44,451 nt of DNA from Verrucomicrobiia bacterium (GTDB taxonomy: Bacteria > Omnitrophota > Omnitrophia > Omnitrophales > Aquincolibacteriaceae). The stretch's first letter is position 1. Every line of letters starts with the position of its first letter. This document shows, in pieces, positions 1-34,283 of the stretch. The DNA is taken from the NCBI GenBank assembly GCA_035495615.1, contig DATJFP010000038.1:1-44451 (forward strand), given 5' to 3'. The translations under genes and the position numbers were made by a program. The notes below the pieces were generated by a model. That model ran no database searches. It had not been told where the DNA came from and saw only the letters and a program-made list of their open reading frames with translations.

Positions 1-3000
1 CCGGACGCCTTCACGCTGAAGGTCGAGATTCCGGAAATCTGGTTGAGCGAATTGATGGCCACGCTCAGCGCGGGATTGCCGTTCGCATCCAGGAACGTGC
101 GGCCCGTCAGGCCCGTGGCCACGCTCGTCTCGTAAAGCGAGGACGACTGCGCTTCGGCCAGCGTGTCGAACGCCGCGCTCGACCACGCCGCGCGCGTCAT
201 GCCCGAGTCGGTCGTGGTCTGGTCCACGAGGCGGTGGCTGTTCACGTATTCGATGTCGCCCGACGGCTTGGTGCTGAACGTGGACACGCCCGAAACCTGG
301 TTGTTCGCGTTGATCGCGAGGCTGACCGCCGGATTGCCGTTCGCATCCAGGAACGTGCGGCCCGTCAGGCCCGTGTTCACGTCCGTTTCATAAAGCCCGG
401 CCGCCTGCGCTTCGGCCAGCGTATCGAAGGAAGACGGGCTCCAGTTCATGCGCGTCATGCCCGCATCGGTCGTCGACTGATCGATCATGCGGTGGCTGTT
501 CACGAAGGCAATGTCGCCGGACGGCTTCACGCTGAACGTCGAAACGCCCGAGATCTGATTGTTGGTGTTGATCGCGAGGCTGACGGCCGGATTGCCGCTC
601 GCGTCCAGGAACGTGCGGCCGGTCAGGCCGGTCGCAAGGTCGGTTTCGTAAAGGCCCGGGGCCTGCGCTTCGGCCAGCGTATCAAAGGAAGACGGGTTCC
701 AGTTCAGGCGCGTCATGCCCGCGTCCGTCGTGCTCTGGTCGATCAAACGGTGACTGTTCACGAATTCGATGTCGCCCGACGGTTTCACGCTGAACGTCGA
801 AACGCCTGAGATCTGGTTCGCGGAGTTGATGGCGATGCTGACCGAAGGATTGCCGTTCGCATCCAGGAACGTGCGGCCCGTCAGGCCCGTCGCCAGGCTC
901 GTCTCGAACACGCCGGCGCCCTGCGCTTCGGCCAGCGTATCAAACGCGGCGCTCGACCAGGAGACGCGCGTCATGCCGGAATCGGTCGTGGTCTGGTCGA
1001 TCAGGCGGTGGCTGTTCACGAAAGCAATGTCGCCGTTCGGACGGACGCTGAAGCTTGACGCCCCGGAAATTTCGTTGTTCGCGTTGATCGCAAAGCTGAG
1101 CGAGGGATTGCCGTTCGCGTCGAGGAACGTGCGGCCGGTCAGGCCCGTGTCCACGTCCGTTTCGTAAAGGCCCGCGGCCTGCGCTTCGGCGAGCGTATCA
1201 TACGAAGACGGGTTCCATGCCTTGCGCGTCATGCCCGTGTCCGTCGTGTTCTGGTCGATCAAACGGTGGCTGTTTACAAATTCGATGTCTCCGGAAGCCT
1301 TCACCTGAAACGTCGATACACCCGAGATCTCATTATTGGAATTTATAGCAACGCTGACCGCAGGATTACCGTTTGCGTCCAAAAACGTACGCCCCGTGAG
1401 GCCCGTGGTCAGGCTCGTCTCATAGAGCCCGCCGGCCTGCGCTTCACCCAGCGTGTCGTAGGCGCTGCTGGACCACGCCGCGCGCGTCATGCCGCTGTCG
1501 GTTGTCGATTGATCAATCAGGCGGTGGCTGTTCACGAATTCAATGTCGCCCGTCGGCTTGACGCTGAAGGTCGACACGCCGCTGATCTGATTGTTTGAAT
1601 TGATCGCGATGCTCACCGAAGGATTGCCGTTCGCATCCAGGAACGTGCGTCCCGTGAGCCCTGTGTCTTTGTTGGTATCATAAAGCCCCGGCGCCTGCGC
1701 TTCGGCCAGCGTATCAAAGGAAGACGGATTCCAGCTCATGCGCGTCATGCCCGAATCGGTCGTCGACTGGTCGATCAGGCGGTGGCTGTTCACGTAATCG
1801 ATGTCGCCCGACGGCTTCACGCTGAACGTGGAAACGCCCGAGATTTCGTTGTTCGAATTGATCGCAATGCTGACCGCCGGATTGCCGTTCGCATCCAGGA
1901 ACGTGCGCCCCGTCAGGCCCGTGGCGAGGTCGGTTTCGTAGAGGCCCGGCGCCTGTGCTTCGGCCAGCGTATCAAAGGAAGACGGGTTCCAGCTCACGCG
2001 CGTCATGCCTGAGTCCGTCGTGCTCTGGTCGATCAGGCGGTGGCTGTTCACGTACTCGATGTCGCCGTTCTGTTTCACGCTGAACGTCGAAACGCCGGAG
2101 ATCTGGTTGTTCGCGTTGATCGCGAGACTGACCGACGGATTGCCGTTCGCGTCGAGGAACGTACGGCCCGTCAGGCCGGTCGCCAGGCTTGTTTCATAAA
2201 GCCCCGCGCCCTGCGCTTCGGCCAGCGTGTCGAACGCCGCGCTCGACCAGCCGGCGCGCGTCATACCGGAATCGGTGGTGCTCTGATCGATCATGCGATG
2301 GCTGTTCACGTATTCGATCTCGCCGTTTTCTTTCACGCTGAACGTGGAAACACCGGAGATCTGGTTATTGGAATTGATGGCCAGGCTGAGGGCCGGGTTG
2401 CCGTTCGCATCCAGGAACGTGCGGCCCGTGAGCCCCGTGTCTTTATCGGTTTCGTAAAGGCCCGGCGCCTGAGCTTCGGCCAGCGTGTCAAAGGCCGCGT
2501 CGGTCCACGAGCGGCGCGTCATGCCGGAATCGGTCGAGCTCTGATCGATGAGGCGGTGGCTGTTCACAAAGGCAATGTCCCCGCTCGGACGGACATCGAA
2601 GGTGGAAGCGCCCGTGATTTCGTTCTGAGCATTGATCGCAATGCTGACCGAAGGATTGCCGTTCGCGTCCAGGAACGTGCGGCCCGTCAGGCCCGTGGAA
2701 AGATCGGTCTCATAAAGTCCCGCGGCCTGAGCTTCGGTGAGCGTGTCAAAACCCGTGTCGCTCCAGCTGCGGCGCGTCATGCCTGCGTCGGTCGTGCTCT
2801 GATCGATCAGGCGGTGGCTGTTCACGTAATCAATGTCGCCCGTCGGCTTCACTTTGAAAGTCGAAACGCCCGCGATCTGGTTTTGCGCGTTGATGGACAT
2901 GCTCACCGCCGGATTGCCGTTCGCGTCCAGGAACGTGCGCCCCGTGAGGCCCGTCGTCAGGCTCGTTTCATAAAGGCCCGGCGCCTGGATTTCCGCGAGC

Positions 3001-3750
3001 GTGTCGTAAGCCGTGTCGCTCCAGTTGGCGCGCGTCATGCCTGAATCGGTCGTGGACTGGTCGATGAGGCGGTGGCTGTTCACGAAATTGATGTCGCCGC
3101 TGTCTTTGACGTTGAACGTCGAGATGCCCGCGATCTGGTTGTTCGTGTTGATGGCCACGCTGACCGACGGATTGCCGTTCGCGTCCAGGAACGTGCGGCC
3201 CGTGAGGCCCGTGGCAAGGCTCGTTTCATAAAGGCCGGGCGCCTGCGCTTCGGCGAGCGTATCAAAGGAAGACGGGTTCCAGCCCATACGCGTCATGCCG
3301 GAATCGGTCGTCGACTGGTCGATCAGGCGGTGGCTGTTGACGAAGTTGATGTCGCCGCGCGGATTCACGTTGAAGGTGGAAACACCGGAGATCATGTTCT
3401 GCGCATTGATGGCCATGCTGACCGACGGGCTGCCGTTCGCATCCATGAAGGTGCGGCCCGTAAGGCCCGTCGCGAGGCTGGTTTCGTAGAGGCCCGAAGC
3501 CGTGATCTTGGCCAGCGAATCGAAAGCCGCGCTGCTCCAGGTCCCGCGCGTCATGCTGGAATCGGTCGTGCTCTGGTCGATCAGGCGATGGCTGTTGACG
3601 TACTGGATGTCGCCGCGTTTGGAAGTGCTGAAGGTCGAGATCCCGCTGACCTCGTTGTTCGCATTGATGGACACGCTCACCGACGGGTTGCCGTCCGTGT
3701 CCATGTAGGTCCGGCTGTTCAGGCCCGTATCCAGGTTCGCCATATAATCG
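1..3750 (-). repeat. 258-bp in-frame tandem array (86-residue protein repeat)
   Basis: The anchor GGATTGCCGTTCGC (plus strand) and its variants recur at 73, 331, 589, 847, 1105, 1363, 1621, 1879, 2137, 2395, 2653, 2911, 3169, 3427 and 3685, exactly 258 bp apart each time. Each unit encodes 86 residues with invariant cores GRTFLDANGNP, STFSV and YVNSHRLIDQSTTDSGMTR, and ends in GLYET. A sixteenth, diverged unit with altered spacing lies just upstream at about 3.75-4.0 kb. The array continues past the left edge, so the total copy number is unknown. Confidence 0.95.
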
Positions 3751-6700
3751 GAAGCGGTGAAGTCCGAGATCTCGTCTTTGTTGGCCGCGGCGCGCGCATT
3801 CCAGTCGATGCGCTGCAGGCCCGGCGTGCCCGTGTTCTGGTCGACAAGACGGTGCGCGTTCACGTACTTCAGAGTACCGTCCAGATTTTTCTCGAAGGTC
3901 GAAAATCCGCTGATTTCCTTGGCCGCGTTGATCGAGAGCGCGAGCACCGGGCTCTGGTCTTTGTCGAGGAAGGTGCGACCCGTGATGTCGTCGTCGATCG
4001 TGCCCGCCAGGATGGCCTGGATGGCTTCGTGGATCGTGTCGATCGAGTCCGCGGGATTTTCGTCGATCTTGGCTTGGATCGCGGCCGCGTCGATGTCGGG
4101 GGCGCCGCCGTCCACGAAGTAGCTGTCCGTAAACTTCAGCAGGTTTTTATTGTCCGCATCGTAATTGAAGATGTTGTAGCTGGCGACCTTCAGGGCCGCG
4201 CCGTCCCAGCGGTAATTGTGCACGTATTCGGTGCGGTCGCCGTCTTCGCTGAAATAAACCGTGGATTTCTTCTGCTTCAGCGCCGACGGAACCGTCACAC
4301 CGCTTGCGTCCGTCGGAAGCGTGATACCGTCTTCGCTGATGTCCCACTGGTCGATGCTGGCGAGATCGCCGTCGCCCGCGTCGTCATAATTGAAGACGCT
4401 CAGCGAAACCGGCTCTTCGTTTTTGTTCATCGAAATGGAGTAAATGGCGCGCGTGCCCACGTCATTGAAGTAGACACGCGTCCGGAACTGATCGTCGCTT
4501 CCCGCGTCCGCGAGCAGCGCGTCGATGGCTTCCTTGATCGTGTCGATCGCGTCCGCCGGGTTCTCGTCGATCTTGGCCTGGATCAGCGCGGGCGTCACGT
4601 CCGCGGCGCCGGTCACCGTGTACTGGTCGCTGTAATTGGCCGTGCGTCCGTCCGATTCGTAGTTGAGGACCGTGAAACCGGCCATGATCTGGACGTCAGG
4701 CGTCGCGGGCGTGCCGTCGTCGTCTACCCATTTGAACGAGAATTCAGCCTGAGGGATTTCATTTTCGAACAGCGTGATCCCGATCTGCTGGTCGTCGGTG
4801 AGCTTGCCGCCCGTCACCACCGGCGCGCCGTTCACGTACGTGGCATCATCGAGGGTGCCGACCACTTTGAACTTCTGGATCATGCTGACCTTGCCGTCGT
4901 CGCCGTAGGTGTAGACCGTCTGCTCGTCCGCGAGCACGTCGGTCGGCGTGGCGCTGCCCGGATCGTCGACGTAAGAGACCGAGCGCTTGACCCGGTCGTT
5001 GTAGAACTGGCCCTGCTCGTAATCGATGCGGCCCGTCTGGATGCCCGCCGCGTTTTCCTGCACGACGTGGTCGATGAAGTTGTCGGGACGGTAAAAGTAA
5101 GTGCTCTTGTTGCCGTGCTTGTCGGTGATGTCCTTGATTCGCAGCTCCTCGGTATCGTTGAACGGCGACATCTTGTAAGTCAGGGTGCTTTCGAGCACGC
5201 CGCCCGTGTGAGGGTCGGATTCGCGGCTCACGTCGTACTGCAGCACGCGGTCCGGATCGGGCGGATCCGCGTCGTCGTATTTGTATTCGCTGCGCTGCAC
5301 CACCTTGCTGCTGTCCGCGCTGTAGGTCAGGATGTAATCGATGTGATCGCCCGCGTCCTGGTAGAAAATCTCGCTCATGATCGGCGCGTCGCGGTTGGGC
5401 TCGACATGAGAGCGTCTCTCCACGACGTGGTCCACATCGGTCGGATCGCCGTTCTCATTATAATAATAGTAGCGCACCGTGCCGTCGTGCTCGAGCACGA
5501 AATCCACGAACGGGCTTCCCGGAGGGCCCTGCGAAAGGCCCGCCGCGTCGTGCTGGTAGACGATGGCGCCGATGATGTCGTTGTCGGGTTCAGGGCCGAG
5601 GATCACCGACAGGTCCATGTCGGCGGCATTGGCGTCGGCATAGGCACGGAACGGATGCCCGACGGGAAGATCGTCGGCCGTGTAGATCGAGCGCGTCCTT
5701 CTTCCTTTGATGTTGATGACTTCATCCATGACTTCGCGGGCGCCGCCCGACGGATCGTCCTTGAAGCGGAAAATCGTGCCCGTGTTGAAGTAGATCGCCG
5801 TCTTGCCGTCTTCCTGGTTGACGATCTCGATCGGGCCCTGGCCGTCCGTGACCAAAAAGTCCGGGCCCTTCGACGTGGTGATGTTGTTTTCCGTGACGCC
5901 GGCTTCATAGATTTCGCGGGAGAGCCGTCCGTCGACCGTCTGCGTCACGACCGTGGACGCGGGCTTGCCCGTGAAGTCCGCGTCAGACGGCGGATTGCCG
6001 GTGTAGGTGTAATCGCGGATCACATTGCCGCCGCTGTCTTCGATGCGGTCGATCAGGCCCCCGGTAAGGAACGTCGTTTCGCCGGTCTTGTTGTTGGTGA
6101 ATTCCACCAGCTCGTCGAAGATGTTGAAGGTGCTGACTGTGTCGCGCACCTTGTCGATCACCACGCGCGTGAAAAAGTCAGGATACGAGAATTGCTTCTC
6201 GATGATGCGCGCAGGGCCTTCCCAGTGTCCGCTTTCAAGCAGCCTGCCGAGTTTGTCTTTCGTATCGTCGTATTCGAAGATGTTGTAGGTGTCGTCGGCG
6301 TTGCGGATATCGACTTTCGTCGGATCCGTGTAGTCATAGGTGGCCAGAACGACCGGCGCGGCGATGCCGTCCCACGTGCCGGTGAAGCGGATCTTGCCGA
6401 TCGTGTTCGTCGCGCCCGTAAAGTCGCGCTCGATGTAGCTGTTGTCGTCGCGGTTCACGATGCGGACGCGGCCCGCGATGTCATAATTGTAATCGGTTTT
6501 GATGACGGGATTCACGCCGTCCATCTGACCGCCGTAGAGGATCTTGCCTAGAGCGTGCGTCGCGGGATCGTATTCCTGAACCACGAAGGACTGGTCCGCA
6601 CGCTCCGTAACACGCATGGTCGTCGGCGTGTCGATTTCGAAGTCGCGCTCCACGACCGCCACATTGATCGAGTTCATGTAACCGCCGCGGACCGGATTCT

Positions 6701-9700
6701 TGATGTCCCTCGTCGCGGAATCGAACTCGTATTCCACGTAATCCTTGCTCGTCGCGTCGACGATACGGACGAATCCGGCATCGCGGTAATCGTAGGTCTT
6801 GGCGGTCTCGAAGTTCGTGCCGTTCGTGTGCGTGCCGGTTTCCAGGATGTTGCCGAACTGGTTTGAGGCGTCATTGAAGGCATAGGTCGTATAGGTGTTG
6901 TCCGTCGCGACCGCTTTGACCTGGCCGGTAGTCGTGTAATCGTAGGTCCTGTTGGCGACGAAGTTGATGCCCGCGTCGTGCACGCCGGACTCGCGGAGCT
7001 TGCCGCGCTTGTTCTTCGACGTGTCGTAATCATAGAGTTCATAGGTGTTGTCGTTGCTGACAACCAGCTGCTGGTCAGGGTACGTCGTGTAGTCGTAGTT
7101 GTGCGTGGTCACGAAATTGGTGCCGTTCGTGTGCGTGCCGCCGTCAACGGCCTTGCCAATCACGTTCTGTCCGGCATTGTAGTCGTACTCTTCGAAGGTG
7201 TTGTTCGTATAGACGACTTTGACTTTCCCCGAGACCGAGTAATCGTAATTGCGGTCCGTGACCAGATTCGCGCCGTGATCGTGCGTGCCGCCGAAGAGTA
7301 CTTTCTCGATTTTGTTCTGGCCGGCATTATAATCGTAAGTCTCGAAGGTGCCGTCCGTGTGGAAAGCGGTGACTTTTCCCGTGACCGTGTAGTCGTAGTC
7401 GGTCGTCTTCACAAAATTCAGCCCATTCTGCTGCGTGCCGTCTTCCAGCAGCTTGCCGAATTTTTTCTGCGCCGCGTTGTATTCGTACTTGCTGTAGGTG
7501 TTGTCCTTGTGGAGGGCGGTGACGATGTCGGCGATCGAGTAATCGTACGTGGCCGTGACCACGAAGTCCCCGCCCGCGTCGTGCGTTCCTTCCCGCAGCA
7601 GGTCGCCCATGGAATTGTCGCCGGCATCGAAGGCGTAAACCTGGAATGTGCCGTCGTCATTGATCGCGGTGACTTCGCCGGGAATGGTGTAATCGTAAAG
7701 CGTCGGCATGTCGAACTCGCCCTGGGCATTGATATCGCCGGATTCGATCAGCTTGCCTTTCTTCTTCTTGTCGATGTCGAATTCGAAGACGCGGTAATCG
7801 CTGTCGGTTTCGTTGACGACCGTCACTTCGTTGTTTTCGTAATCGTATTCGTAATTGTAGACCTTGTTCTCGACCAGGTCCGTCAGGCGGAGAGTCAGAT
7901 CCTGGTCGTCTTTTTCTTCCTTCTGCTGGAGGGTGGCGATGTTGGAGCTGATATCCACGAGGTAATTGAAATAATCGGTATCGTGGCGCAGCGTCACTTC
8001 GTAGATGTTGGCCGCCGTGTTGGTGAGGGCGACGCGGTGGAAATTCGACTTCGGAATGCCGAGCCTCGTTTCGAGATCGTCCATGGCAAGGTCGAAGGCT
8101 TCGGTTTCCTGGGGATTGGCCGGGTTGTAGTCCGGGGCAAGAGGCGCAGGCGTACGCCCCTGGATGCCGTCCACGCGCACTTCGATTTTCGCGCGGGTGT
8201 TGTTTTCGGAGATGAAAGGATTGGAGATAAACTGGATTTCGCGGATGGAATTGACGTTGAGACCGGAAGTATCCAGCTCGAATTTCTGCATCGTGGACGT
8301 CAGACGCACCACGCCGACCGCGATCTTGCCGTCCGTATCGATCACCTTCACCTGCACGCTGAGAGGCTCGGTGATCGCGGGCCTGTCGCCCGTATCGGCT
8401 TTGTCGGCACGCGCCCAGAATTCGAAGCTGCCGTCCACCGAGATGGGCGCGGTCTTGTTTTTCAGGATCATGACGGCCTCGTCGCCGGGATGGCGGCGGA
8501 GATCGTATTGGTAAGCGACGCCGTCGGTCATGGGACGCAGCGTGATGTAACGGCCGGTCGGGTACGTCATGGGCGAATTGCCGATATTGTCGGGCGCGCT
8601 GTCGGTCGCCTGCGGCGCGAGCACGCTCGCGTCTTTTTCCAGGCCCAGCAGCCCGACGTTGATCTGCGCGCGCTGGTTGTCGCCCGAAACCGCCTGATTG
8701 TGGATGATTTCGATTTTCTTGATCTTCGAGGCATCGATGCCGGACGAAAGGTCGAAGACGAATTCCTGTTCCGTGCCGGTGATCGAGACGTTTTTCGCGA
8801 TCACGCTGCCCGAGTTATCTGTAAAGCGGATCACCGCGTTGACCGGATACGTCAGCGTCACGGGATCTTCCGTCGGCTGCACGGCCTGCAGCCAAAGCTT
8901 GAAGCTCGAGCCCGCATCCATGGTGCCAGCCGGATTTTCGATCACGGCAACGGGCTGCGACGCGCTGCTGGAACGCGCGTCATAAACGTACGAGAAGCCG
9001 TTCGTCTTGGAGCGGGCCGTGATGAAGGAGCCGGTGAGCGAAACCCGCGGGCGGTTGGTCAGCGTGGAAGGCGCGCCGCCTTTGGTCCCGCCCGGCACCG
9101 CGGTCAGGTCTTCATTCAGCCCGTTCACCAGCACGAAAACATCCGCGCGTTTGTTCGATCCGGAAACCGACTGATCGTGAACGAAGGTAATGCGTTTCAC
9201 ATTGGCCTTGTCGAAAAGCGGGTCGATCGACTTCGGGTCGATCGTGAAGGCCTTCAGCGTGGTGGTGAGATCCAGGTCCACGCTGACCGTCCTGCCGTTT
9301 TTATCTTCCAGGACGACCCGCTGCTTGAACGGCATGCTGAGCGCCGGGCCGTTAGGCGCGACCTTGGCGTGCAGCGTAAGGGCATTGCCGATGTTCATGT
9401 TCCCGCCGATGTTTTCGAGTCTCATCTTGCCCTGGGCCTCGGCGTTGGCCCGGACGTCGTAGACGTACTTGATCCCAGGCGAATAGGATCCGTCCATCGT
9501 GATGTTTTGCGAGTGGATCGCGGAAGGAAGGTTGGGGAGGGTGGTCTTGGGATTGGCCGTCAGGTCCGTGGAACCGCTGAAGAACGGCACCGCCCCGCTG
9601 CGGTCTTCCATCTGGAGGAACGTCGCGGTGTCGGTCTGGATGTTGACGGAATAACGGTAATATTTCTGGCCGTACTTGAGCAGCAGCTCATAAATGTTCG

Positions 9701-12002
9701 TCGCCGGGTTGAAAATCCCCTGGCGCGTAAAATTGGATTCATTCACACCGAGCCGCGTTTCCAATTCGTCTTCGGCCTCGTTGTAAGCCTCTTCTTCTTC
9801 GGGCGATTCTTTCCTGAATTCCGTCTGCTCCATATCCCGAAGCATGTCCATGCCGCGGATGAATCGGTTGAGTGCTTCGTGCAACAGGACTTCTGCCGGG
9901 CCGGAAAGCGGCTTCGTGTCCTGGGCCTTCTCGATCAGCGAAGCAAGCCCCGCGAGGCTGAGCGGCTGCTTGTCCATGCCGTCCTTGTTGTAGGCCCAGA
10001 CCTGGTCCCCGGCAATGGCGTATTCCTTCAATTTGCCGGCATTCGCGAAGTCCACACTGCTGGGCTGCGACTTGTCCGGATGGTTATGCGCGATGAAAGT
10101 CACGTCACTGTCGTCGAGCAGCTCCTTCACCGGCGCCGGCACCATGACGTCTTCTTCGGTCCCGGAGGTGAAGATGATCGTCTTGCCCCCTTTGACCACC
10201 ACGCCGACTTCGAAATCCAAGGCGGCCAGTTTCTCGAGGTCTTCCGAGGTCAGCCCGTCGATCACGAAAGCCAGGGGCAGGCCTTTCTCGAGCAGGCTGT
10301 AAACGTAATCAAACGTCGTTGCTTCTTTCACATCATAGGCAAAAGGCGTTACTTCCTTGGCGAGGTATTTTTGGGAGGGTTCTTTGATGCGGGACCCGTC
10401 TTGGGCAAGACGGATTTTTCCTTCTTCTATTGTGACTCCTTGGAGATCAGGCGTATTAGGATTGTAAACGGTAGTGCGGTAGGTATTCTCAGGGAAATAG
10501 TAGGCCGTCCGGGCATATCCCCCGGTCTTGGGATCGAGTTCGTAAGTGAACTCGATAGTCTTTGACACACCATTCGCGTCCGGAGGTCCGCGGGACATCT
10601 GGATTCTTCCGACCTCCTGGTTAGGAAGCGCCTCGTAAGTCAGGACGTATCCGTCTTCGGTATGGATTTCGTAAGATGTGCCTTTTCGAACCAGGGTGGA
10701 AGTCAACTTGAGCGTGGCGGCCTTCATTATAAAGGTACCTGCCTCTTGGATCTGGTGCGGTTCCAAGTCGCCGTCCCAGCGGATGACCGGCTTCAGAAGC
10801 TTCATGCGAAGGTAGGTCATGGTCTTGAAATCCAGCACCAGAAGCTGGTCGCCTTCCCCTTCTTTCCCGGCCTTCTGGCGGATGTATTCCTTCTTCTCTC
10901 CGTCCATATTAATGAAGAGCAGATCCCCGATGCCCCCGTTGGCAGCGCGCTCGAAGACCCGGTACTGGTCCGGCTTGTCCGCCATGCGGAAGATGTAAGT
11001 GTTGTGAACGGCGCCGTTGCTGTCCTTGTAGCTGGAAAGCTCGACATTGTACTTGTGGTTCTGCGGGTCGGTATACGCCACGCCCTCCAGGTCTCCCAGG
11101 CTGCCGTCCGCAGTCATGGCATAAACATGACGCGTTCCCTGCAGCGCATCCAGAACCGTGACGCGCTTATGCGCCTTGTCGTATTGATACTTGAGGAAAA
11201 GGCGCTTGCCGTCCTGGACGCCTTCGTACTGGATCATCTGCCCGGGTTCGCCGTTGTCGTCGAGCTCGAAGACGGTTTTCTCATCCGGACGGAGCGGATT
11301 GACGGCCGTCATGGTCCACTTGTCGTAATCGTATTCGCGGGTTTTGTACTCGCGTCCGTTCACGGCAAACCCTTCGTTCGAAATCCCGTCGATTTCGCCG
11401 TTGGGCTGGACAAAATATTCTTTGAACTGGCTGAACCCCTTGCGGCGCGACGTGATGGTCTGGACTTTCATCTTTTCGACCTCGTCTTTGCCGTTGAGCG
11501 TGTATGTCATGATGTGGGCCACCGGTTTCTTGGTGGCCGGATCAATGTCGACCATGTTCAAGAGGCGGCGCGTCGCTTTGTCGACGGTGAACGACGTCCC
11601 GGCTTTCTTGTATTCGAACTTGATCCTGTCGACCATGTCGTGGACTTGCAGCTGGTCGCCGGGACGCTTTTGGAGCGGGTTAATCTCAGGCGAAAAATAG
11701 GCATTGGCGGGAGGCTGTGTATCGGGGGTGTTTTCGACGATCTGATCAGGCGATTTGGCATTTTCTTTGGTGATGGGCTGCTGGGTTTGTTCCATGTCCT
11801 GGAGGAAATGGACGTCACTCAGGTCTTTATCTTTCTGAACATCAGGCTTCGGCATGACAGGCATAGGCAGAGCGGCGGGAGCAACGGAGCTGAAGGCCAA
11901 GCGGGTATCGAGGGAAGTGAAAATGAAAAGGAAAACAGTAATAGCCGCGACCGCGCGGAGGGAAAAAGGTTTTGTGCTTCTGTGACAATCGCTAAAACTC
12001 AT
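1..12002 (-). CDS. Giant secreted multi-repeat protein (3' end beyond window)
   Basis: One frame stays open from ATG 12002 to base 1 (4,000 codons); the C terminus is outside the window. The start follows AAAGGA 12 nt upstream and an in-frame stop just before it. Residues 1-36 form a signal peptide (basic start, hydrophobic AAITVFLFIF, cleavage near RLA-FSS), so export is expected. In order: a tyrosine/aspartate-rich beta region (about 60-500); a JAMM-like segment with E598, H639, H641, S648 and D651; three related beta-sandwich modules at about 9.5-8.15 kb, flanked by two copies of an ETRLG-containing module; about ten 50-residue YD-like repeats (7.7-6.2 kb); a further beta-rich region; and at least fifteen 86-residue repeats (3.75 kb to base 1). 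I recognise no named family overall. A surface or extracellular structural or adhesive role is inference. Plus-strand frames over it are shadows. Confidence 0.93.
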   Translation of the reverse strand, partial: MSFSDCHRSTKPFSLRAVAAITVFLFIFTSLDTRLAFSSVAPAALPMPVMPKPDVQKDKDLSDVHFLQDMEQTQQPITKENAKSPDQIVENTPDTQPPANAYFSPEINPLQKRPGDQLQVHDMVDRIKFEYKKAGTSFTVDKATRRLLNMVDIDPATKKPVAHIMTYTLNGKDEVEKMKVQTITSRRKGFSQFKEYFVQPNGEIDGISNEGFAVNGREYKTREYDYDKWTMTAVNPLRPDEKTVFELDDNGEPGQMIQYEGVQDGKRLFLKYQYDKAHKRVTVLDALQGTRHVYAMTADGSLGDLEGVAYTDPQNHKYNVELSSYKDSNGAVHNTYIFRMADKPDQYRVFERAANGGIGDLLFINMDGEKKEYIRQKAGKEGEGDQLLVLDFKTMTYLRMKLLKPVIRWDGDLEPHQIQEAGTFIMKAATLKLTSTLVRKGTSYEIHTEDGYVLTYEALPNQEVGRIQMSRGPPDANGVSKTIEFTYELDPKTGGYARTAYYFPENTYRTTVYNPNTPDLQGVTIEEGKIRLAQDGSRIKEPSQKYLAKEVTPFAYDVKEATTFDYVYSLLEKGLPLAFVIDGLTSEDLEKLAALDFEVGVVVKGGKTIIFTSGTEEDVMVPAPVKELLDDSDVTFIAHNHPDKSQPSSVDFANAGKLKEYAIAGDQVWAYNKDGMDKQPLSLAGLASLIEKAQDTKPLSGPAEVLLHEALNRFIRGMDMLRDMEQTEFRKESPEEEEAYNEAEDELETRLGVNESNFTRQGIFNPATNIYELLLKYGQKYYRYSVNIQTDTATFLQMEDRSGAVPFFSGSTDLTANPKTTLPNLPSAIHSQNITMDGSYSPGIKYVYDVRANAEAQGKMRLENIGGNMNIGNALTLHAKVAPNGPALSMPFKQRVVLEDKNGRTVSVDLDLTTTLKAFTIDPKSIDPLFDKANVKRITFVHDQSVSGSNKRADVFVLVNGLNEDLTAVPGGTKGGAPSTLTNRPRVSLTGSFITARSKTNGFSYVYDARSSSASQPVAVIENPAGTMDAGSSFKLWLQAVQPTEDPVTLTYPVNAVIRFTDNSGSVIAKNVSITGTEQEFVFDLSSGIDASKIKKIEIIHNQAVSGDNQRAQINVGLLGLEKDASVLAPQATDSAPDNIGNSPMTYPTGRYITLRPMTDGVAYQYDLRRHPGDEAVMILKNKTAPISVDGSFEFWARADKADTGDRPAITEPLSVQVKVIDTDGKIAVGVVRLTSTMQKFELDTSGLNVNSIREIQFISNPFISENNTRAKIEVRVDGIQGRTPAPLAPDYNPANPQETEAFDLAMDDLETRLGIPKSNFHRVALTNTAANIYEVTLRHDTDYFNYLVDISSNIATLQQKEEKDDQDLTLRLTDLVENKVYNYEYDYENNEVTVVNETDSDYRVFEFDIDKKKKGKLIESGDINAQGEFDMPTLYDYTIPGEVTAINDDGTFQVYAFDAGDNSMGDLLREGTHDAGGDFVVTATYDYSIADIVTALHKDNTYSKYEYNAAQKKFGKLLEDGTQQNGLNFVKTTDYDYTVTGKVTAFHTDGTFETYDYNAGQNKIEKVLFGGTHDHGANLVTDRNYDYSVSGKVKVVYTNNTFEEYDYNAGQNVIGKAVDGGTHTNGTNFVTTHNYDYTTYPDQQLVVSNDNTYELYDYDTSKNKRGKLRESGVHDAGINFVANRTYDYTTTGQVKAVATDNTYTTYAFNDASNQFGNILETGTHTNGTNFETAKTYDYRDAGFVRIVDATSKDYVEYEFDSATRDIKNPVRGGYMNSINVAVVERDFEIDTPTTMRVTERADQSFVVQEYDPATHALGKILYGGQMDGVNPVIKTDYNYDIAGRVRIVNRDDNSYIERDFTGATNTIGKIRFTGTWDGIAAPVVLATYDYTDPTKVDIRNADDTYNIFEYDDTKDKLGRLLESGHWEGPARIIEKQFSYPDFFTRVVIDKVRDTVSTFNIFDELVEFTNNKTGETTFLTGGLIDRIEDSGGNVIRDYTYTGNPPSDADFTGKPASTVVTQTVDGRLSREIYEAGVTENNITTSKGPDFLVTDGQGPIEIVNQEDGKTAIYFNTGTIFRFKDDPSGGAREVMDEVINIKGRRTRSIYTADDLPVGHPFRAYADANAADMDLSVILGPEPDNDIIGAIVYQHDAAGLSQGPPGSPFVDFVLEHDGTVRYYYYNENGDPTDVDHVVERRSHVEPNRDAPIMSEIFYQDAGDHIDYILTYSADSSKVVQRSEYKYDDADPPDPDRVLQYDVSRESDPHTGGVLESTLTYKMSPFNDTEELRIKDITDKHGNKSTYFYRPDNFIDHVVQENAAGIQTGRIDYEQGQFYNDRVKRSVSYVDDPGSATPTDVLADEQTVYTYGDDGKVSMIQKFKVVGTLDDATYVNGAPVVTGGKLTDDQQIGITLFENEIPQAEFSFKWVDDDGTPATPDVQIMAGFTVLNYESDGRTANYSDQYTVTGAADVTPALIQAKIDENPADAIDTIKEAIDALLADAGSDDQFRTRVYFNDVGTRAIYSISMNKNEEPVSLSVFNYDDAGDGDLASIDQWDISEDGITLPTDASGVTVPSALKQKKSTVYFSEDGDRTEYVHNYRWDGAALKVASYNIFNYDADNKNLLKFTDSYFVDGGAPDIDAAAIQAKIDENPADSIDTIHEAIQAILAGTIDDDITGRTFLDKDQSPVLALSINAAKEISGFSTFEKNLDGTLKYVNAHRLVDQNTGTPGLQRIDWNARAAANKDEISDFTASDYMANLDTGLNSRTYMDTDGNPSVSVSINANNEVSGISTFSTSKRGDIQYVNSHRLIDQSTTDSSMTRGTWSSAAFDSLAKITASGLYETSLATGLTGRTFMDANGSPSVSMAINAQNMISGVSTFNVNPRGDINFVNSHRLIDQSTTDSGMTRMGWNPSSFDTLAEAQAPGLYETSLATGLTGRTFLDANGNPSVSVAINTNNQIAGISTFNVKDSGDINFVNSHRLIDQSTTDSGMTRANWSDTAYDTLAEIQAPGLYETSLTTGLTGRTFLDANGNPAVSMSINAQNQIAGVSTFKVKPTGDIDYVNSHRLIDQSTTDAGMTRRSWSDTGFDTLTEAQAAGLYETDLSTGLTGRTFLDANGNPSVSIAINAQNEITGASTFDVRPSGDIAFVNSHRLIDQSSTDSGMTRRSWTDAAFDTLAEAQAPGLYETDKDTGLTGRTFLDANGNPALSLAINSNNQISGVSTFSVKENGEIEYVNSHRMIDQSTTDSGMTRAGWSSAAFDTLAEAQGAGLYETSLATGLTGRTFLDANGNPSVSLAINANNQISGVSTFSVKQNGDIEYVNSHRLIDQSTTDSGMTRVSWNPSSFDTLAEAQAPGLYETDLATGLTGRTFLDANGNPAVSIAINSNNEISGVSTFSVKPSGDIDYVNSHRLIDQSTTDSGMTRMSWNPSSFDTLAEAQAPGLYDTNKDTGLTGRTFLDANGNPSVSIAINSNNQISGVSTFSVKPTGDIEFVNSHRLIDQSTTDSGMTRAAWSSSAYDTLGEAQAGGLYETSLTTGLTGRTFLDANGNPAVSVAINSNNEISGVSTFQVKASGDIEFVNSHRLIDQNTTDTGMTRKAWNPSSYDTLAEAQAAGLYETDVDTGLTGRTFLDANGNPSLSFAINANNEISGASSFSVRPNGDIAFVNSHRLIDQTTTDSGMTRVSWSSAAFDTLAEAQGAGVFETSLATGLTGRTFLDANGNPSVSIAINSANQISGVSTFSVKPSGDIEFVNSHRLIDQSTTDAGMTRLNWNPSSFDTLAEAQAPGLYETDLATGLTGRTFLDASGNPAVSLAINTNNQISGVSTFSVKPSGDIAFVNSHRMIDQSTTDAGMTRMNWSPSSFDTLAEAQAAGLYETDVNTGLTGRTFLDANGNPAVSLAINANNQVSGVSTFSTKPSGDIEYVNSHRLVDQTTTDSGMTRAAWSSAAFDTLAEAQSSSLYETSVATGLTGRTFLDANGNPALSVAINSLNQISGISTFSVKAS
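6195..7710 (-). repeat. About ten 150-bp (50-residue) YD-like repeats
   Basis: Within the giant gene, units of about 50 residues each begin with YDY and carry a V-K/T-A-x3-D-x-T-Y/F pattern, then Y-x-YNA, then G-K-L and a GTH-D/T-x-G-x-NF element. Seven units are well conserved and about three nearer 6.2 kb are degenerate. The tyrosine-aspartate pattern resembles the YD/RHS repeats that build beta-helical shells or filaments, but the period is longer than the classic one of about 20 residues, so the relationship is tentative. Confidence 0.8.
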
Positions 12003-12420: not shown

Positions 12421-13347
12421 TTATCTCACGATGCAAATGATACGGTCAACAAAATCTTTCAGCTTTTCTTCAGGTTCCCACGTCAGCCATTGGATGTTTT
12501 TTTCTTTTCGGAACCACGTCATCTGACGTTTGGCGAGATGGCGGGTGTTTTTCTTGATCAAATCTTTGGCGGCGTCGGCTTCCCTTCCGGAAAGCTCCGG
12601 GCCGGACAACAGCAATTCCTTGTAGCCCACCGCCTGAAACGCGGTTTTGGAAAGTTCTTGCCGCGCAAGCAGACGAACTTCCCGAACGAGTCCTTTTTCG
12701 AACATCTCATCCACCCGCTTTTCGATTTCCCGATAAAGAAAACTTCTTTCCCGGGTGATGCCGAGAACAAGCGGCTCGAATCCCAGATCCGTCAAACCTT
12801 CCTTCGACGCGTACCACTCTCCCGCGGATTTCCCGGAAACCGCGCGAATCTCGAGAGCGCGGATGATGCGTCGCTTATCCGTCGGCTTGATCCTGGCCGC
12901 GGATTCAGGATCGCATTTTTTAAGATCTTTATAGAGCCTTTCAATTCCTTCACTGGAAACGGTTTGCTCCATCTTTTCACGAAACAACGCATCTCCTCCA
13001 GGCTGCGGCGACAATCCTTCCAAAAGCGAGCGCACGTAGAGTCCGGTGCCGCCGGCGACAATCGGCAGTTTTTTCCGGGAAACAATGTCCTGGATGGCGG
13101 CAAGGGCCCTGCGGCGGAACTCGTAAACAGAAAAGGATTCGGAAGGCTCGACCAGGTCGATCAGGTGATGAGGAATTTCTTTGCGCTCCGCCGCGGAAGG
13201 TTTGGCGGTTCCGATGTCCATGCCGCGATAAACCTGCATCGAGTCAGCGGAAATGATTTCACCGCCAAGGCGGCGCGCGACGAGAAGGGCAATCTTGGAT
13301 TTTCCGGCGGCCGTAGGGCCGACCAGAAAAAGCACGCGCGGCTTCAC
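12421..13347 (-). CDS. miaA: tRNA dimethylallyltransferase
   Basis: MiaA transfers a dimethylallyl group to N6 of A37 in tRNAs reading UNN codons. The P-loop FLVGPTAAGKSK lies at the N terminus, followed by the family signatures SADSMQVYRGMDIGTAKP, GGTGLY and, near the C terminus, KRQMTWFRKE. I chose GTG 13347, giving 308 residues, the usual family length. A longer frame to 13416 only adds sequence overlapping argS. The GTG overlaps the argS stop as GTGA, indicating translational coupling. It is the last gene of the rsfS-argS-miaA unit. Confidence 0.95.
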   Translation of the reverse strand: MKPRVLFLVGPTAAGKSKIALLVARRLGGEIISADSMQVYRGMDIGTAKPSAAERKEIPHHLIDLVEPSESFSVYEFRRRALAAIQDIVSRKKLPIVAGGTGLYVRSLLEGLSPQPGGDALFREKMEQTVSSEGIERLYKDLKKCDPESAARIKPTDKRRIIRALEIRAVSGKSAGEWYASKEGLTDLGFEPLVLGITRERSFLYREIEKRVDEMFEKGLVREVRLLARQELSKTAFQAVGYKELLLSGPELSGREADAAKDLIKKNTRHLAKRQMTWFRKEKNIQWLTWEPEEKLKDFVDRIICIVR

Positions 13348-15014
13348 ATGGATTCGGGCTGGGAAATCCCCAGAAGCTCGAGGCCGTTCCACAGCACAAT
13401 GCGGGAGGTCTCGCACAACAGCAGACGGGCCTGGGTCAGCTCCTCGTTTTCCGTGACGACCCGATGGGCGGAATAAAACTTGTGGAAAGCCATGGCCAGC
13501 GTCCGGAGATAATCTGCCAGGCGGTAGGGTTCCAGGCTCTCGGACGCGCCGATCAGGGCCTTGGGAAAGTCCGAAATGATCTTGATCAGATTCCGCTCAT
13601 CTTCGGCTTCATAGAGATCCACGTTCACCTTGACCGTGACTTCGCGCTCGGCAAACCGGAGCACGCTGGCAATGCGGGCATAGGCGTACTGGAGGTAATA
13701 AACCGGATTGTCCTGGGACTTTTGCTTGGCCAGGTCCAGGTCAAAGTCCAGATGGCTTTCCAGACGCCTCATGATAAAGAAATACCGGGCCGCATCCACC
13801 CCGACCTCATCCATGAGCTCCCGAAGCGTGACGAATTCCCCTGCCCGGGTGGACATGCGTACGGGCTGGCCGTTGCGATAAAGGGTGGAAAGCTGGGCAA
13901 TCCGGATCTCGACCTGGCGGGGGTCATGCCCCAGAGCCTGGCAGGCGGCCTTGAGCCTGGGAATGTAGCCGTGGTGATCGGGCCCCCAGAAGTTGATCAG
14001 CCATTCATAGCCCCTTTCAAACTTCTGGCGGTGGTAGGCAATGTCCGGGGCCAGGTAGGTATACTCTCCGGTCGACTTCCGCACGACCCGGTCCTTGTCA
14101 TCCCCCAGATCCGTGGACTTAAACCATAGGGCGCCGTCCTTTTCGTAGATGAAATTCTTCTTTTTCAGGGCGTCGAGAGTCTTTTCCACGGCGTTTTTCT
14201 GGTAAAGGGTCTGCTCGCTGAAATATTCGTCGAATTTGACCCGGAATTCCGCCAAGTCCTTTCGGATCCCCGCCATGATCTCAGCCCCGGCATACTGGGT
14301 GCAAAAGGCGAGCGATTCCTCTTCCGGACGCTTGAGCAGGGAATCCTGCTTCTCCTGGACCAGCTTTTTGGCGATGTCGATGAGGTATTCGCCCTGGTAA
14401 CCGTCTTCCGGAAGCGGCGTGGCCTGCTTCAACTCGGTCTTGTAACGGGACCAAAGGCTTTTGCCGAGCAGGTTCATCTGCCTTCCGGCATCGTTCAGAT
14501 AATATTCAGAGGCCACATGGTGTCCGGTGGCTCTCAAGATCCGCGCCAGCGCGTCCCCCACTGCGGCCTGCCGGCCGTGGGCAATGGTCAGCGGTCCGGT
14601 AGGATTGGCGCTCACATACTCAAGAAGCACCTTTCGCCCCTTGCCGAAGTCGGATTTGCCGTAATCCCGATTTTTCCGGCAGACCTCCATAAGGATCTGG
14701 CCGAGGGAGGACTTTTTCAGGTAGAAATTGATGAATCCCGCGCCCGCGACCTCCATGCGTTCCACCGTCGACTCTTTTTCGTGCTTCGAGCCTTCAGATT
14801 CCAGGAGGAGGACCAAGTCGTCCGCGATCTGATTGGGCCTGGCGCGCGCAATCTGGGCCAATTTGAACGCGGCATTGCAGGCAAAGTCCCCATGGGCCGG
14901 GTCCCGGGAAACGACCAAGTCATACTGGAAGGCTTCGGGGAGGTTCAGCCCCTTGCGCTTGCAGTATTCCTGGATCGTCCTGTCGATGATGCCGCTCAGC
15001 TCCTGCTTGGCCAT
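13344..15014 (-). CDS. argS: Arginyl-tRNA synthetase
   Basis: This class I synthetase charges tRNA-Arg with arginine. At 556 residues it has the usual length. The N-terminal additional domain is followed by the HIGH-type motif in SANPTGPLTIAHGR, and MSTRAGEF stands in the KMSKS position. The C-terminal helical anticodon domain ends in the characteristic NGLELLGI. The start ATG is 1 nt after the rsfS stop (TAG C ATG) and its stop overlaps miaA, so the three genes are co-translated. Confidence 0.97.
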   Translation of the reverse strand: MAKQELSGIIDRTIQEYCKRKGLNLPEAFQYDLVVSRDPAHGDFACNAAFKLAQIARARPNQIADDLVLLLESEGSKHEKESTVERMEVAGAGFINFYLKKSSLGQILMEVCRKNRDYGKSDFGKGRKVLLEYVSANPTGPLTIAHGRQAAVGDALARILRATGHHVASEYYLNDAGRQMNLLGKSLWSRYKTELKQATPLPEDGYQGEYLIDIAKKLVQEKQDSLLKRPEEESLAFCTQYAGAEIMAGIRKDLAEFRVKFDEYFSEQTLYQKNAVEKTLDALKKKNFIYEKDGALWFKSTDLGDDKDRVVRKSTGEYTYLAPDIAYHRQKFERGYEWLINFWGPDHHGYIPRLKAACQALGHDPRQVEIRIAQLSTLYRNGQPVRMSTRAGEFVTLRELMDEVGVDAARYFFIMRRLESHLDFDLDLAKQKSQDNPVYYLQYAYARIASVLRFAEREVTVKVNVDLYEAEDERNLIKIISDFPKALIGASESLEPYRLADYLRTLAMAFHKFYSAHRVVTENEELTQARLLLCETSRIVLWNGLELLGISQPESM

Positions 15015-27281: not shown

Positions 27282-28704
27282 AAAAACCTTGCCGGTCTTT
27301 GTCCGGCATCTTGGGAGAAAAACTTTTTTCCAGTGCCTGAAGCCCGGCAAAATCCGAGCGCTTCCAGAACCCTGCCACGATGCCGGCAAGACCCGCGGCG
27401 CCGAAAACCGTGGTCTCCGTATGCACGGGCCTTTCCACGCTGAAACCCAGCACGTCGGCCTGGAATTGCATCAGGAATTCGTTGCGCACCGCACCGCCGT
27501 CCACACGCAGCGTCTTAAAAACATGGCCGGGCACAAGCGGCTTCATTTCCTCGACGACGTCGCGGGTCTGGTAGCACAGCGATTCCAGCGCGGCGCGGAC
27601 CAAGTGTGCGGGCTGCGTGCCGCGCGTGATCCCGATCAAAAGCCCGCGGGCGTCCGGGTCCCAGAACGGCGCGCCGAGCCCCACAAAGGCCGGCACCAGA
27701 TAGACGCCTTCGTTGGAAGGAAGCGACTTGGCCAGGGCTTCGGTCTCATCCGCGGACCGGATGATCTTGAGGCCGTCGCGCAGCCATTGGATGCACGAAC
27801 CGCCCACGAAGATGCTGCCCTCCAAGGCATATTCGGTCTCGTTCCCGATTTTCCAAGCCACGGTATTAACCAGGCGGCCGGATTTGGGGATCTCTTTTCC
27901 CGTGCACGTCATGACGAAAAGTCCTGTGCCGTAAGTATTCTTGATCACCCCAGGCTTCCACCCGCCCTGCGCGAACAACGAAGCCTGCTGGTCGCCGAGG
28001 ATTCCCGTGATGGGAATTTCCTTTCCCAGAATTTTCTTATCGACCTGGCCGAAGACCGTGCCGCTGTCTTTGACTTCCGGCAGCAGGGATTCGGGAACAC
28101 CGAAAAGTTTCAGCAGTGAAGCGTCGTATTGCAGCGTGAGGATGTTGAAACAGAGTGTTCGGGAAGCATTGCTGACTTCAGTCGCATGAACCTTGCCGCA
28201 GGTCAGGTTCCAGAGGATCCACGTGTCCACCGTGCCGAAAACGATTTCTCCCTTTTCCGCTTTTTGCCGGACTCCCGGAACTTCGTCCAGGATCCAGCGG
28301 ATCTTGGTCGCGGAAAAATAAGGGTCGAGGAAAAGGCCGGTCTTCTCTTTGATTGAGGCGGACTCGCTGCGCAGTTTCTCACACATTGGAGTCGTGCGGC
28401 GGCATTGCCAGACAATGGCATTAAAAACGGGCTTTCCGGTTTTCCGGTCCCAGAGAATCGTGGTCTCGCGCTGGTTCGTGATGCCGAGAGCCGTAATGTT
28501 CTCCACCCCCACCAGGGAAGCTACTTCTTTCAGCGCCTTCAGCGCCGTTTCCCAGATCTGCATGGGGTCATGCTCGACCCATCCCGGCTTGGGAAAAATC
28601 TGCGGGAATTCGTAATAGGCTTTGGCGAGAATACGGCCGTCCGCGGAATACGCGACCACGCGGTTCCCCGTGGTTCCCAGGTCCATGGCCAAAATCGCTT
28701 TCAT
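27217..28704 (-). CDS. glpK: Glycerol kinase
   Basis: GlpK phosphorylates glycerol to glycerol 3-phosphate. The 495-residue FGGY kinase has the N-terminal phosphate loop MDLGTTGNRVV and the GlpK-specific FPKPGWVEHDP and GITNQRETTILWDRKTGKP followed by WQCRRT. The C-terminal domain has DGGAVRNEFLMQFQADVLG. ATG 28704 follows AAAGGAGGAGA; the longer frame overlaps the methyltransferase. It overlaps that gene's stop by 4 bp (ATGA). No glycerol transporter or glycerol-3-phosphate dehydrogenase is nearby. Confidence 0.95.
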   Translation of the reverse strand: MKAILAMDLGTTGNRVVAYSADGRILAKAYYEFPQIFPKPGWVEHDPMQIWETALKALKEVASLVGVENITALGITNQRETTILWDRKTGKPVFNAIVWQCRRTTPMCEKLRSESASIKEKTGLFLDPYFSATKIRWILDEVPGVRQKAEKGEIVFGTVDTWILWNLTCGKVHATEVSNASRTLCFNILTLQYDASLLKLFGVPESLLPEVKDSGTVFGQVDKKILGKEIPITGILGDQQASLFAQGGWKPGVIKNTYGTGLFVMTCTGKEIPKSGRLVNTVAWKIGNETEYALEGSIFVGGSCIQWLRDGLKIIRSADETEALAKSLPSNEGVYLVPAFVGLGAPFWDPDARGLLIGITRGTQPAHLVRAALESLCYQTRDVVEEMKPLVPGHVFKTLRVDGGAVRNEFLMQFQADVLGFSVERPVHTETTVFGAAGLAGIVAGFWKRSDFAGLQALEKSFSPKMPDKDRQGFYASWKKAAEKSLGWAKDAQSH

Positions 28705-30078: not shown

Positions 30079-31161
30079 CTAGAAAATCGAGCGTTCCTTA
30101 TGGATGCTGAGCACCAGGCCCAGGGCAAGTGCCGTCATAATGAAGGACGAACCACCGTAACTGATGAGCGGGAGCGTCAATCCGGTAATGGGGAGAAGGC
30201 CGATGCTCATGCCCACGTTGATCATAACCTGGGAAAACAGGACGGTCAGGATGCCCGCAGCCAGCAGCTTGGCGCGCTGGTCTGTTGTTTGGCCGATCAC
30301 TTCGAAGATCGCATTAAAAAGCGCGGCATAGCAGAAAAGAAGGAGCGCCGCACCCAAATACCCCCACTCTTCGCCCAGCACGCAAAAAATAAAGTCCGTG
30401 TGATGCTCGGGAACGAATTGGAGCTGGCTTTGCGTGCCGTGCAAAAGCCCTTTGCCGAAAAGTCCGCCCGAACCGACTGCGATCTTGGACTGTAGTGCCG
30501 TGTACCCCGCGCCAAGGGGGTCCAGATTCGGATTCAAAAAAACAAGGATGCGCTTTTTCTGATATTCCTTGAGGATGCTCCACAAAATCGGCACGGCGGA
30601 GAGCCCCAGCACCGCGGCGCCAATCATGTAGCGGTACGGAATCCCCCACAGAAAAAGAAGCACGATCACCATGGGCACAAAAAGGAGCGAGCTGCCCAGG
30701 TCCGGCTGACGCATGATGAGGATCTGCGGGACGAACGCCAGCACAAGGGCGATGAGGATGATGCTGTTCTTTTTTTCCCATGAATGATGCGAGCCTAGAA
30801 AATTGGCAAGCGTCATGATCGTGGCGATCTTGGCAAACTCCGAAGGCTGGATGATAATCGGCCCGATTCCGATCCAGCGCTGCGCGCCTAAGCGCGTGTG
30901 CCCGGCCACCATGACCCAGACCAGCAGGACGAGAGAAATTACATAAAGCAGATAGGAAACGCTGAGCAGCCGGCGGTAGCCCACGAAAGGCACGAGAAAG
31001 AAAACCACCAGGCCCGCGGAAGCCCATACCATCTGCTTCACATCGTATTCGGCCGGGTCGCGGTAGGAAGCGCTGCGAATGAAGATGATGCCGATGATAC
31101 TGAGCGCGGTCATGGCCACAACGAGCGACCAGTTCGTGTCCTTAAGCCACTTTCTGACCAT
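30079..31161 (-). CDS. rodA: Peptidoglycan glycosyltransferase RodA
   Basis: RodA is the SEDS-family polymerase that extends glycan strands during cell elongation, paired with PBP2. The 360 residues form about ten membrane helices. Signatures are IQPSEFAKIA, MRQPDLGSSL, FVPEHHTDFIFCVLGEEWG with the catalytic Asp, and the C-terminal LPLISYGGSS. It overlaps the upstream mrdA by 20 bp and is the last gene of the mreB operon; its end lies 62 bp before tRNA-Pro. Confidence 0.97.
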   Translation of the reverse strand: MVRKWLKDTNWSLVVAMTALSIIGIIFIRSASYRDPAEYDVKQMVWASAGLVVFFLVPFVGYRRLLSVSYLLYVISLVLLVWVMVAGHTRLGAQRWIGIGPIIIQPSEFAKIATIMTLANFLGSHHSWEKKNSIILIALVLAFVPQILIMRQPDLGSSLLFVPMVIVLLFLWGIPYRYMIGAAVLGLSAVPILWSILKEYQKKRILVFLNPNLDPLGAGYTALQSKIAVGSGGLFGKGLLHGTQSQLQFVPEHHTDFIFCVLGEEWGYLGAALLLFCYAALFNAIFEVIGQTTDQRAKLLAAGILTVLFSQVMINVGMSIGLLPITGLTLPLISYGGSSFIMTALALGLVLSIHKERSIF

Positions 31162-32875
31162 ACATGTCTCTCCAGGTTTCCAGCATGCCCTTCACGATCC
31201 GCGCGCCCGCGATGCCGCCGGAACCGCCGTGCTCGACGAAGACCGCAAAGGCGAGCTTCGGATGTTCATACGGAAAAAAGCCCGTCATCCAGGCATGGGA
31301 ATTCAGAGGCGGCGCCTGCGCCGTTCCAGTCTTGGCCGCCATGTGGCCGAAATCCACACGCCCGAGCTGGCCCGTGCCATAATCGGATTGCACGACCTGG
31401 AACATGCCTTGTTTGACGATCTCGAAATTGGCTTTCTTGATCGAGAGGCGTTTGTGCTCATGCGGCGCTTCGCCCTCCCCTTCGGGCCAGCGGATGAGAT
31501 GCGGCTCAACGATCTCTCCGTCCTTGGCGATGATGGACGTCATGCGCAGGATCTGGACCGGGGAGGTCAGCAAATAGCCCTGGCCAATGGCAAAACTGAG
31601 CGTTTCTCCCTGGTACCATTTTTCCTTCAGCCGCTTTTTCTTCCAGGCCGAATCAGGAACGAGACCCGGCGCGATATTGGAAGTTTCGAGCCGCATGGCC
31701 TCCCCCAGCCCGAGCATGCGCGCGTATTCGGCGATGTCATCCGGCGACAGCCTTTTCCCCACGGAGTAGAAGAACACGTTGCAGGACCTTTCCAGAGCCT
31801 CATAAACGTTCATGTCGCCATGGCCGCGCGCAAACCAGCATTTGCGTGGAACAGAATTGGGCGTGAGGTGGAAAAGCCCGGTACAGTGAAAGGTCGTGCT
31901 GGGCGTGATCTTGCCCGTCTCGAGCCCCGCGAGCGCAGTCACGAGCTTGAACACCGAGCCCGGCGGGTACGCGGAGCTCACGCCGCGGTCCACAAGCGGC
32001 GAAGCTTCGTCTTTGAGAAAGGCCAGGCGCTCTTTGCTGGCGCCCGGCGACACGAAAACGTTCGGATCGTAGGAAGGCGAACTGGCCAGCGCCAGCAATT
32101 CGTCCGTGTCGAGGTCCAGGACGGCCACAGCCGCGTGCTGGCCCTGGATCAGATCCATGATCTTTTTCTGGAATTCAAGGTCGATGGTCATGGTCAGATC
32201 CTCGCCCGGCACCGGCGTCTTCTCGGAAAGGAGCCGGACCATGTTGCCGCGGGCATTCACCTCGATCTGACGCCCGCCCCGCTCGCCGCGCAGCTTTTCG
32301 TCGTAGACCTTTTCGAGGCCCATGCGGCCGACAAGGGAATTCATGCCGTAAAGGAGCTGGTTCTCGTGGAGCTTTTCGTATTCCGCGCTGTTGATCTTTC
32401 CGATGAAACCGATGAGATGCGACGCCGTCTGCTGATAGGGATAAAAGCGACGGCCCGAGACCCGGATGCTGACGCCGGGAAGTTCCGGACGTCTTTCTTC
32501 GATCTTAAAAGCAATTTCCTGGCTCACGTCCTCTTCGATGACGGCCGGAGCAAAAGGGTATTCCCGGGAAGCGCTCATGCGCTGCTTGATCGCGGCTTCG
32601 GTCAGCCCGAGAAGCTTGGAAAGCCGCGGGTATTCGTCGCGGTGGACGTCTTCGGGCGTGGCCACGACGTCATAGGAGGGGCGGTTGGTGGCAAGGGCCC
32701 GGTGGTTCCGGTCAAAGACCCGGCCGCGCGGCGCTTCCATGGGGATGAGACGGATGCGGTTCTTGTCGCCGAGCGTGCGGTAATAGCTCCCGTTCCAGAC
32801 CTGCACGATAAAAAGCGCAAGCGCCAGGACCAGAAGCCCGGTGAACATCGCAATTTTGAGAATCAGAAAACGCAT
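31142..32875 (-). CDS. mrdA: Penicillin-binding protein 2
   Basis: The class B transpeptidase cross-links peptidoglycan during elongation. The 577 residues contain an N-terminal membrane anchor (ILKIAMFTGLLVLALALFIVQ), a dimerisation domain beginning PRGRVFDRNHRALATN, and the transpeptidase with SVFK (S307, K310), SCN (S364-N366) and KTGTAQ near residue 535. It lies 10 bp after mreD and overlaps rodA. Confidence 0.97.
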   Translation of the reverse strand: MRFLILKIAMFTGLLVLALALFIVQVWNGSYYRTLGDKNRIRLIPMEAPRGRVFDRNHRALATNRPSYDVVATPEDVHRDEYPRLSKLLGLTEAAIKQRMSASREYPFAPAVIEEDVSQEIAFKIEERRPELPGVSIRVSGRRFYPYQQTASHLIGFIGKINSAEYEKLHENQLLYGMNSLVGRMGLEKVYDEKLRGERGGRQIEVNARGNMVRLLSEKTPVPGEDLTMTIDLEFQKKIMDLIQGQHAAVAVLDLDTDELLALASSPSYDPNVFVSPGASKERLAFLKDEASPLVDRGVSSAYPPGSVFKLVTALAGLETGKITPSTTFHCTGLFHLTPNSVPRKCWFARGHGDMNVYEALERSCNVFFYSVGKRLSPDDIAEYARMLGLGEAMRLETSNIAPGLVPDSAWKKKRLKEKWYQGETLSFAIGQGYLLTSPVQILRMTSIIAKDGEIVEPHLIRWPEGEGEAPHEHKRLSIKKANFEIVKQGMFQVVQSDYGTGQLGRVDFGHMAAKTGTAQAPPLNSHAWMTGFFPYEHPKLAFAVFVEHGGSGGIAGARIVKGMLETWRDMYGQKVA

Positions 32876-32885
32876 GAATTCGCCT

Positions 32886-34180: not shown

Positions 34181-34283
34181 GAACTGCTGGGCCCGGGTGT
34201 TCTAAAGGTGATGAAGCAACTAGGGACACATTATCGCTCACGCCGCGATTACTGTCCACCCGGAGACGGCAGGAAGCTAGGGG

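Follow-up and report, generated by a model that had tools for sequence, protein, structure and literature searches.

Giant open reading frames (ORFs) are a known feature of the Omnitrophota, where a role in adhesion or predation has been proposed for them and where, for one such protein, attached cells showed a 3-fold enrichment of its peptides (Seymour et al. 2023, PMC10066038). The giant protein of V. archaeovorus has been proposed to form a coat, and most giant ORFs of the Velamenicoccia are called poorly conserved (PMC10066038). A preprint by West-Roberts et al. (2023, as cited in PMC12057145) also deals with giant Omnitrophota ORFs. Within the PVC superphylum, Ca. Menyafoubacter encodes an extracellular, Sec-exported protein of ~6,000 amino acids with RHS regions and carbohydrate-active modules and without transmembrane (TM) segments (PMC12057145). 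Both the giant ORFs of Omnitrophota and the RHS/carbohydrate-module giants of PVC bacteria have thus already been described (PMC10066038, PMC12057145, PMC12419801).

The protein considered here shares with the Omnitrophota giants its phylum, the giant size of its relatives, a scarcity of annotated domains, probable export and a proposed role in adhesion or predation (PMC10066038; West-Roberts et al., as cited). In contrast to the multiple TM helices and mostly poor conservation of those ORFs (PMC10066038), the observed part of the window protein has a TM-like stretch in its leader only, and its family can be traced across the order by head, locus and JAMM module. It has been seen over 12 kb, open at the contig end, against the criterion of >20 kb for Omnitrophota giant ORFs. 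Compared by description, the Ca. Menyafoubacter protein is similar in its Sec leader, lack of TM segments, RHS regions and carbohydrate-active modules, but carries a CASH beta-helix and a PL6-type lyase and has no JAMM domain reported (PMC12057145). Given the giant ORFs with a proposed adhesion or predation role already known from the phylum (PMC10066038; West-Roberts et al. 2023, as cited in PMC12057145), the suggestion of an earlier note that this DNA encodes an undescribed surface system is too strong. What is new is a traceable giant family with a JAMM module, giant Omnitrophota proteins as such being known; a literature search, to which the preprint contributed only as cited, found neither this head family described nor a JAMM module reported for such giants.

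A giant open frame at a contig end

The window, meaning the whole 44,451-bp stretch of DNA analysed, is the entire contig C38 of a 3.16-Mb genome that is 95.5% complete, and its left edge is the contig end. The giant ORF occupies positions 3..12002 on the minus strand, running from an ATG at 12002 through 4,000 codons to base 3 without a stop, with its 3′ end off the contig. An in-frame TGA lies three codons upstream, and the ATG is the first start after it, is preceded by AAGGA at 12 nt, and gives the first residue at which the relatives sharing this N terminus also begin in the alignment. At this base composition, 4,000 open codons would arise by chance with a probability of ~6e-58, and GC3 is 0.80. 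Between the 86-residue repeat units described below, differences are mostly synonymous (median dN/dS 0.215, mean dS 0.83), as expected of purifying selection, and so the frame is real, translated and constrained. The full-length protein is probably well over 4,000 residues. The earlier note, which had read a single frame from a credible start to the window edge, is thereby upheld by the ORF scan, as is its description of a giant, modular repeat protein of Omnitrophota type, for which export is predicted.

No second contig of the bin shares the left end of the window, the best other match (83%) falling inside the repeat array (window 1-160), and the contig break is thus left unexplained by any repeat elsewhere in the bin. 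Directly upstream of the giant ORF, a gene scan places miaA (12421-13416) and argS (13344-15014), both on the minus strand. A cell-shape cluster (rodA/ftsW, PBP2, mreC, mreB) lies at 30079-35336, and the remaining scanned genes of the window have housekeeping functions, with none recognised as a secretion gene.

Modules of the encoded protein

All modules lie on the minus strand and follow the order that had been noted earlier: JAMM residues at 598-651, beta-sandwiches at 822-1290, YD-like repeats at approximately 1401-1955, and then the 86-residue array. The first 40 residues (11883..12002) form a hydrophobic leader with a motif that is specific to the family in its alignment and unique within the genome. 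Its TM-like stretch begins at residue 13 and is the only one in the 4,000 residues seen, the C-terminal part lying off the contig; these residues show no anchor. The leader is a probable Sec signal peptide, from which export may be inferred. It is followed by the head (residues 41-545; 10368..11882), which has RHS/YD-like strand patterns and is conserved across the order. Searches of Pfam and PDB sequences with the head gave no match.

The next domain is of the JAMM/JAB type (residues 546-735; 9798..10367), with catalytic-type residues E598, H639, H641, S648 and D651 assigned from an alignment of members. The HxH and SxxD elements, HNHPDKSQPSSVD, stand at 639-651, and E598, which is invariant in 20 aligned members, lies 41 residues ahead of H639. 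Among the same 20 members, H639 and D651 likewise never vary, position 641 is His in 18, and P647-S648 is nearly invariant; these residues are kept at only 27-38% identity to the window. Read in this alignment, the signature of the giant ORF is complete. The full motif is found in 27 of 30 fetched relative domains, while the remaining three, all linked to the head, have HxQ (His-to-Gln). In Pfam searches, Prok-JAB (PF14464) matched 8/20 relatives (best 4.5e-4) and RadC (PF04002) matched 3/20, whereas the window's own domain fell below the threshold for both profiles.

Three beta-sandwich modules (residues 822-1290; 8133..9539) are located at 9093-9539, 8598-9077 and 8133-8591. An AF2 model built from only these three copies (pLDDT 74.1, pTM 0.75) retrieved carbohydrate-binding modules (CBMs) as the top Foldseek matches in the PDB, including the CBM-bearing mannanase 1wky (8.5e-6) and CBM11 (3.2e-5), followed by agarase modules and then CBM32 and CBM16, with a best probability of 1.00. 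Against a viral library, the same model matched the jelly-rolls of tail fibres and tailspikes. The modelled sandwich has a CBM fold, but because identity to CBM structures is approximately 7-14% and the TM-score is at most 0.6, this likeness is one of fold and not of family membership. No Pfam profile or PDB sequence match places the sandwiches in a described CBM family.

Next come about eleven YD-like repeats of 50 residues (residues 1401-1955; 6138..7802). A relative (L055, JACPXL010000041.1) from a Candidatus Omnitrophota groundwater metagenome-assembled genome has homologous repeats that are 31-36% identical. Those of the relative score as Pfam RHS_repeat (2.1e-11 and 3.6e-12, and 1.9e-18 for the neighbouring array), all values being summed over repeats; the window's own repeats gave no RHS_repeat profile match. 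The window repeats appear to be RHS-related by way of this relative, with moderate support only, since summation inflates the scores of arrays and implausible families also turned up in these scans. Summation over repeats also underlies the Enolase_N and TolB_N matches of the giant ORF, which were rejected because no single stretch passes.

A non-tandem region (3987..6137), 37-42% identical to four relatives, leads into the tandem array (3..3986). A repeat search resolved the latter into a degenerate unit (3738-3986), 14 full units with a period of 258 nt or 86 residues (residues 2760-3963) and a partial unit reaching residue 4000. The units are 69-89% identical in amino acids. An AF2 model of three of them, at low confidence (pLDDT 47.6), shows each unit as four strands and one short helix. 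Homologous arrays in relatives, that of L055 included, have other unit lengths, namely 75 residues in L055, 73-76 in genome G004 and ~80 in G014. Of the earlier statement that the protein has no recognisable family, one part stands, as no Pfam family was found to span the window sequence in the profile search; the other part gives way to the complete JAMM signature, the CBM-fold sandwich, the RHS-related repeats and a head found throughout the order.

Relatives of the head and of the JAMM domain

The alignment places the head in an order-wide family. Of the 47 genomes in this order of uncultured Omnitrophota, 31 are matched by it, and of the 24 high-quality ones 23, usually with about one copy each and at 21-31% identity to the window. 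The argS and miaA genes lie directly upstream of the head ORF in the window and in five further genera (six in all), which argues for vertical descent. No relatives were found in IMG/VR, phage or plasmid sequences. By coordinate arithmetic, the 31 head ORFs divide into approximately 25 that are truncated by a contig end, three complete ones and three (in G005, G006:C69 and G037) in which a stop or frame change breaks the frame. The one in G006 (C69:19785-29999; L146) is a second head-bearing ORF of that genome; it has a single in-frame stop, and the same frame is open beyond it. A SecA-like motor suggested for G006 by motif reading (GGGKT/DEIH/GRIGR) was discarded for want of Pfam or PDB support.

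The complete relatives are distant and measure 12,698, 18,673 and 21,284 residues (38-64 kb). Two of them share a C-terminal segment (28% identity, 5e-10) with an HExxH and a tail ending in SVAVAA or SVAQAA, and the third ends in VQIAA after a HEATH. Searches with these C-terminal segments in the window's own genome returned nothing convincing (best E 0.076), so they give no confident indication of how the window protein ends. Middle modules differ strongly between species. In G018:C59 (L147-L149), two giant ORFs stand in tandem, one of 9,521 residues (tail at 27789-28565) and one of 18,673 residues from 34469, and the short ORFs between them carry pieces of that shared C-terminal tail.

Of 285 genomes sampled from the phylum, 31 contain the JAMM domain, all of them members of this order, and it often belongs to proteins without the head of the giant ORF. 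The three complete relatives lack it, and this loss, together with the HxQ variants, shows that the head can do without protease activity. Away from this head, the domain lies in open frames of 39,033 (G021:C47), 23,704 (G039:C4), 17,962 (G038:C2), 14,636 (G005:C77) and 11,896 residues (G010:C60). Another exported giant (G015:C140; L069), whose leader differs, has a degenerate JAMM-like segment and four beta-sandwiches, together with a 28-residue tandem array that runs off the contig.

The window's own genome (G000) encodes a second JAMM protein, split between contigs C35 (3-3842, minus strand; L145) and C39 (2-4666, plus strand; L035), the ends of which share an exact 141-bp overlap within a single ORF. 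For that reason, C39 was ruled out as the C terminus of the window protein. The joined ORF, of roughly 2,790 residues, comprises a leader, a JAMM domain (HNHP), many sandwich modules and a domain matching the beta-1,2-glucanase 8xuj (E 5e-18; PMC12102758), with the sandwich family of the giant ORF standing before this glucanase-like domain. As the JAMM domain and sandwich family here travel with a carbohydrate-active enzyme, glycan binding by the giant protein gains support.

Possible roles of the giant protein

The ORF at 12002..3 probably encodes, though with considerable room for doubt, the N-terminal part of one giant exported and probably surface-bound carbohydrate-binding protein that would serve in attachment or predation. 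Its Sec leader would take the chain across the inner membrane, after which the RHS-like head, YD repeats and 86-residue array may form a long, beta-rich shaft, lengthened or varied between species by the array. The three sandwiches could bind a glycan, belonging either to the envelope of the same cell or to a different cell. As a putative zinc metalloprotease, the JAMM domain might cut the giant chain itself or a surface protein, and the unseen C terminus would hold further modules. Such a protein may mediate attachment to polysaccharide-covered surfaces, possibly those of prey.

The strongest alternative, itself improbable, would instead make the protein a structural component of the envelope, similar to an S-layer or coat, anchored to the cell's own polysaccharide and belonging to the core cell surface of each species in the order. 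The roughly single copy found in 23 of the 24 high-quality genomes, the fixed argS-miaA locus and the coat proposed for V. archaeovorus (PMC10066038) all agree with such a component, but strong variation of the middle modules between species would be unusual for a lattice protein, and the JAMM module is of enzyme type. A good deal less likely is an RHS-like shell that, with its JAB domain, delivers a toxin to competitors on contact. RHS polymorphic toxins do include JAB domains with E, HxH, S and D as toxin domains (PMC3482391), a pairing that this toxin reading fits; yet the JAMM domain of the window lies N-terminally, a shared tail closes two complete relatives where variable toxin tips would be expected, no DUF4329 is found among the Pfam matches of JAMM relatives, and an immunity gene was not recognised, though the 3′ side is off the contig here. 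Finally, the array or long frame could be chimeric or decayed, with no giant protein made, as might be suspected from the contig break inside the array and the three interrupted head copies. This is very improbable, as the units are too divergent for collapsed copies, their dN/dS (0.215) is low, and syntenic orthologs are open in other genera.

The favoured reading, that of a surface protein for attachment or predation, can be extended to a broader proposal that is tentative and on balance doubtful. Throughout the order, a giant surface protein, mostly encoded by one copy, would be passed on vertically with head and locus kept constant and with middle modules that are exchanged freely, and the JAMM metalloprotease embedded in it would process the giant chain or a partner's surface protein. 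Such proteins would constitute an undescribed class of self-processing megadalton adhesins, systematically truncated in short-read assemblies.

Assembly truncates most copies at or close to their repeats, and the number and length of such proteins are thus underestimated. Giant Omnitrophota proteins have usually been portrayed as weakly conserved and difficult to assign; the window family, by contrast, is traceable across the order by its head, locus and modules, and thereby offers handles for testing JAMM activity, glycan binding and localisation.
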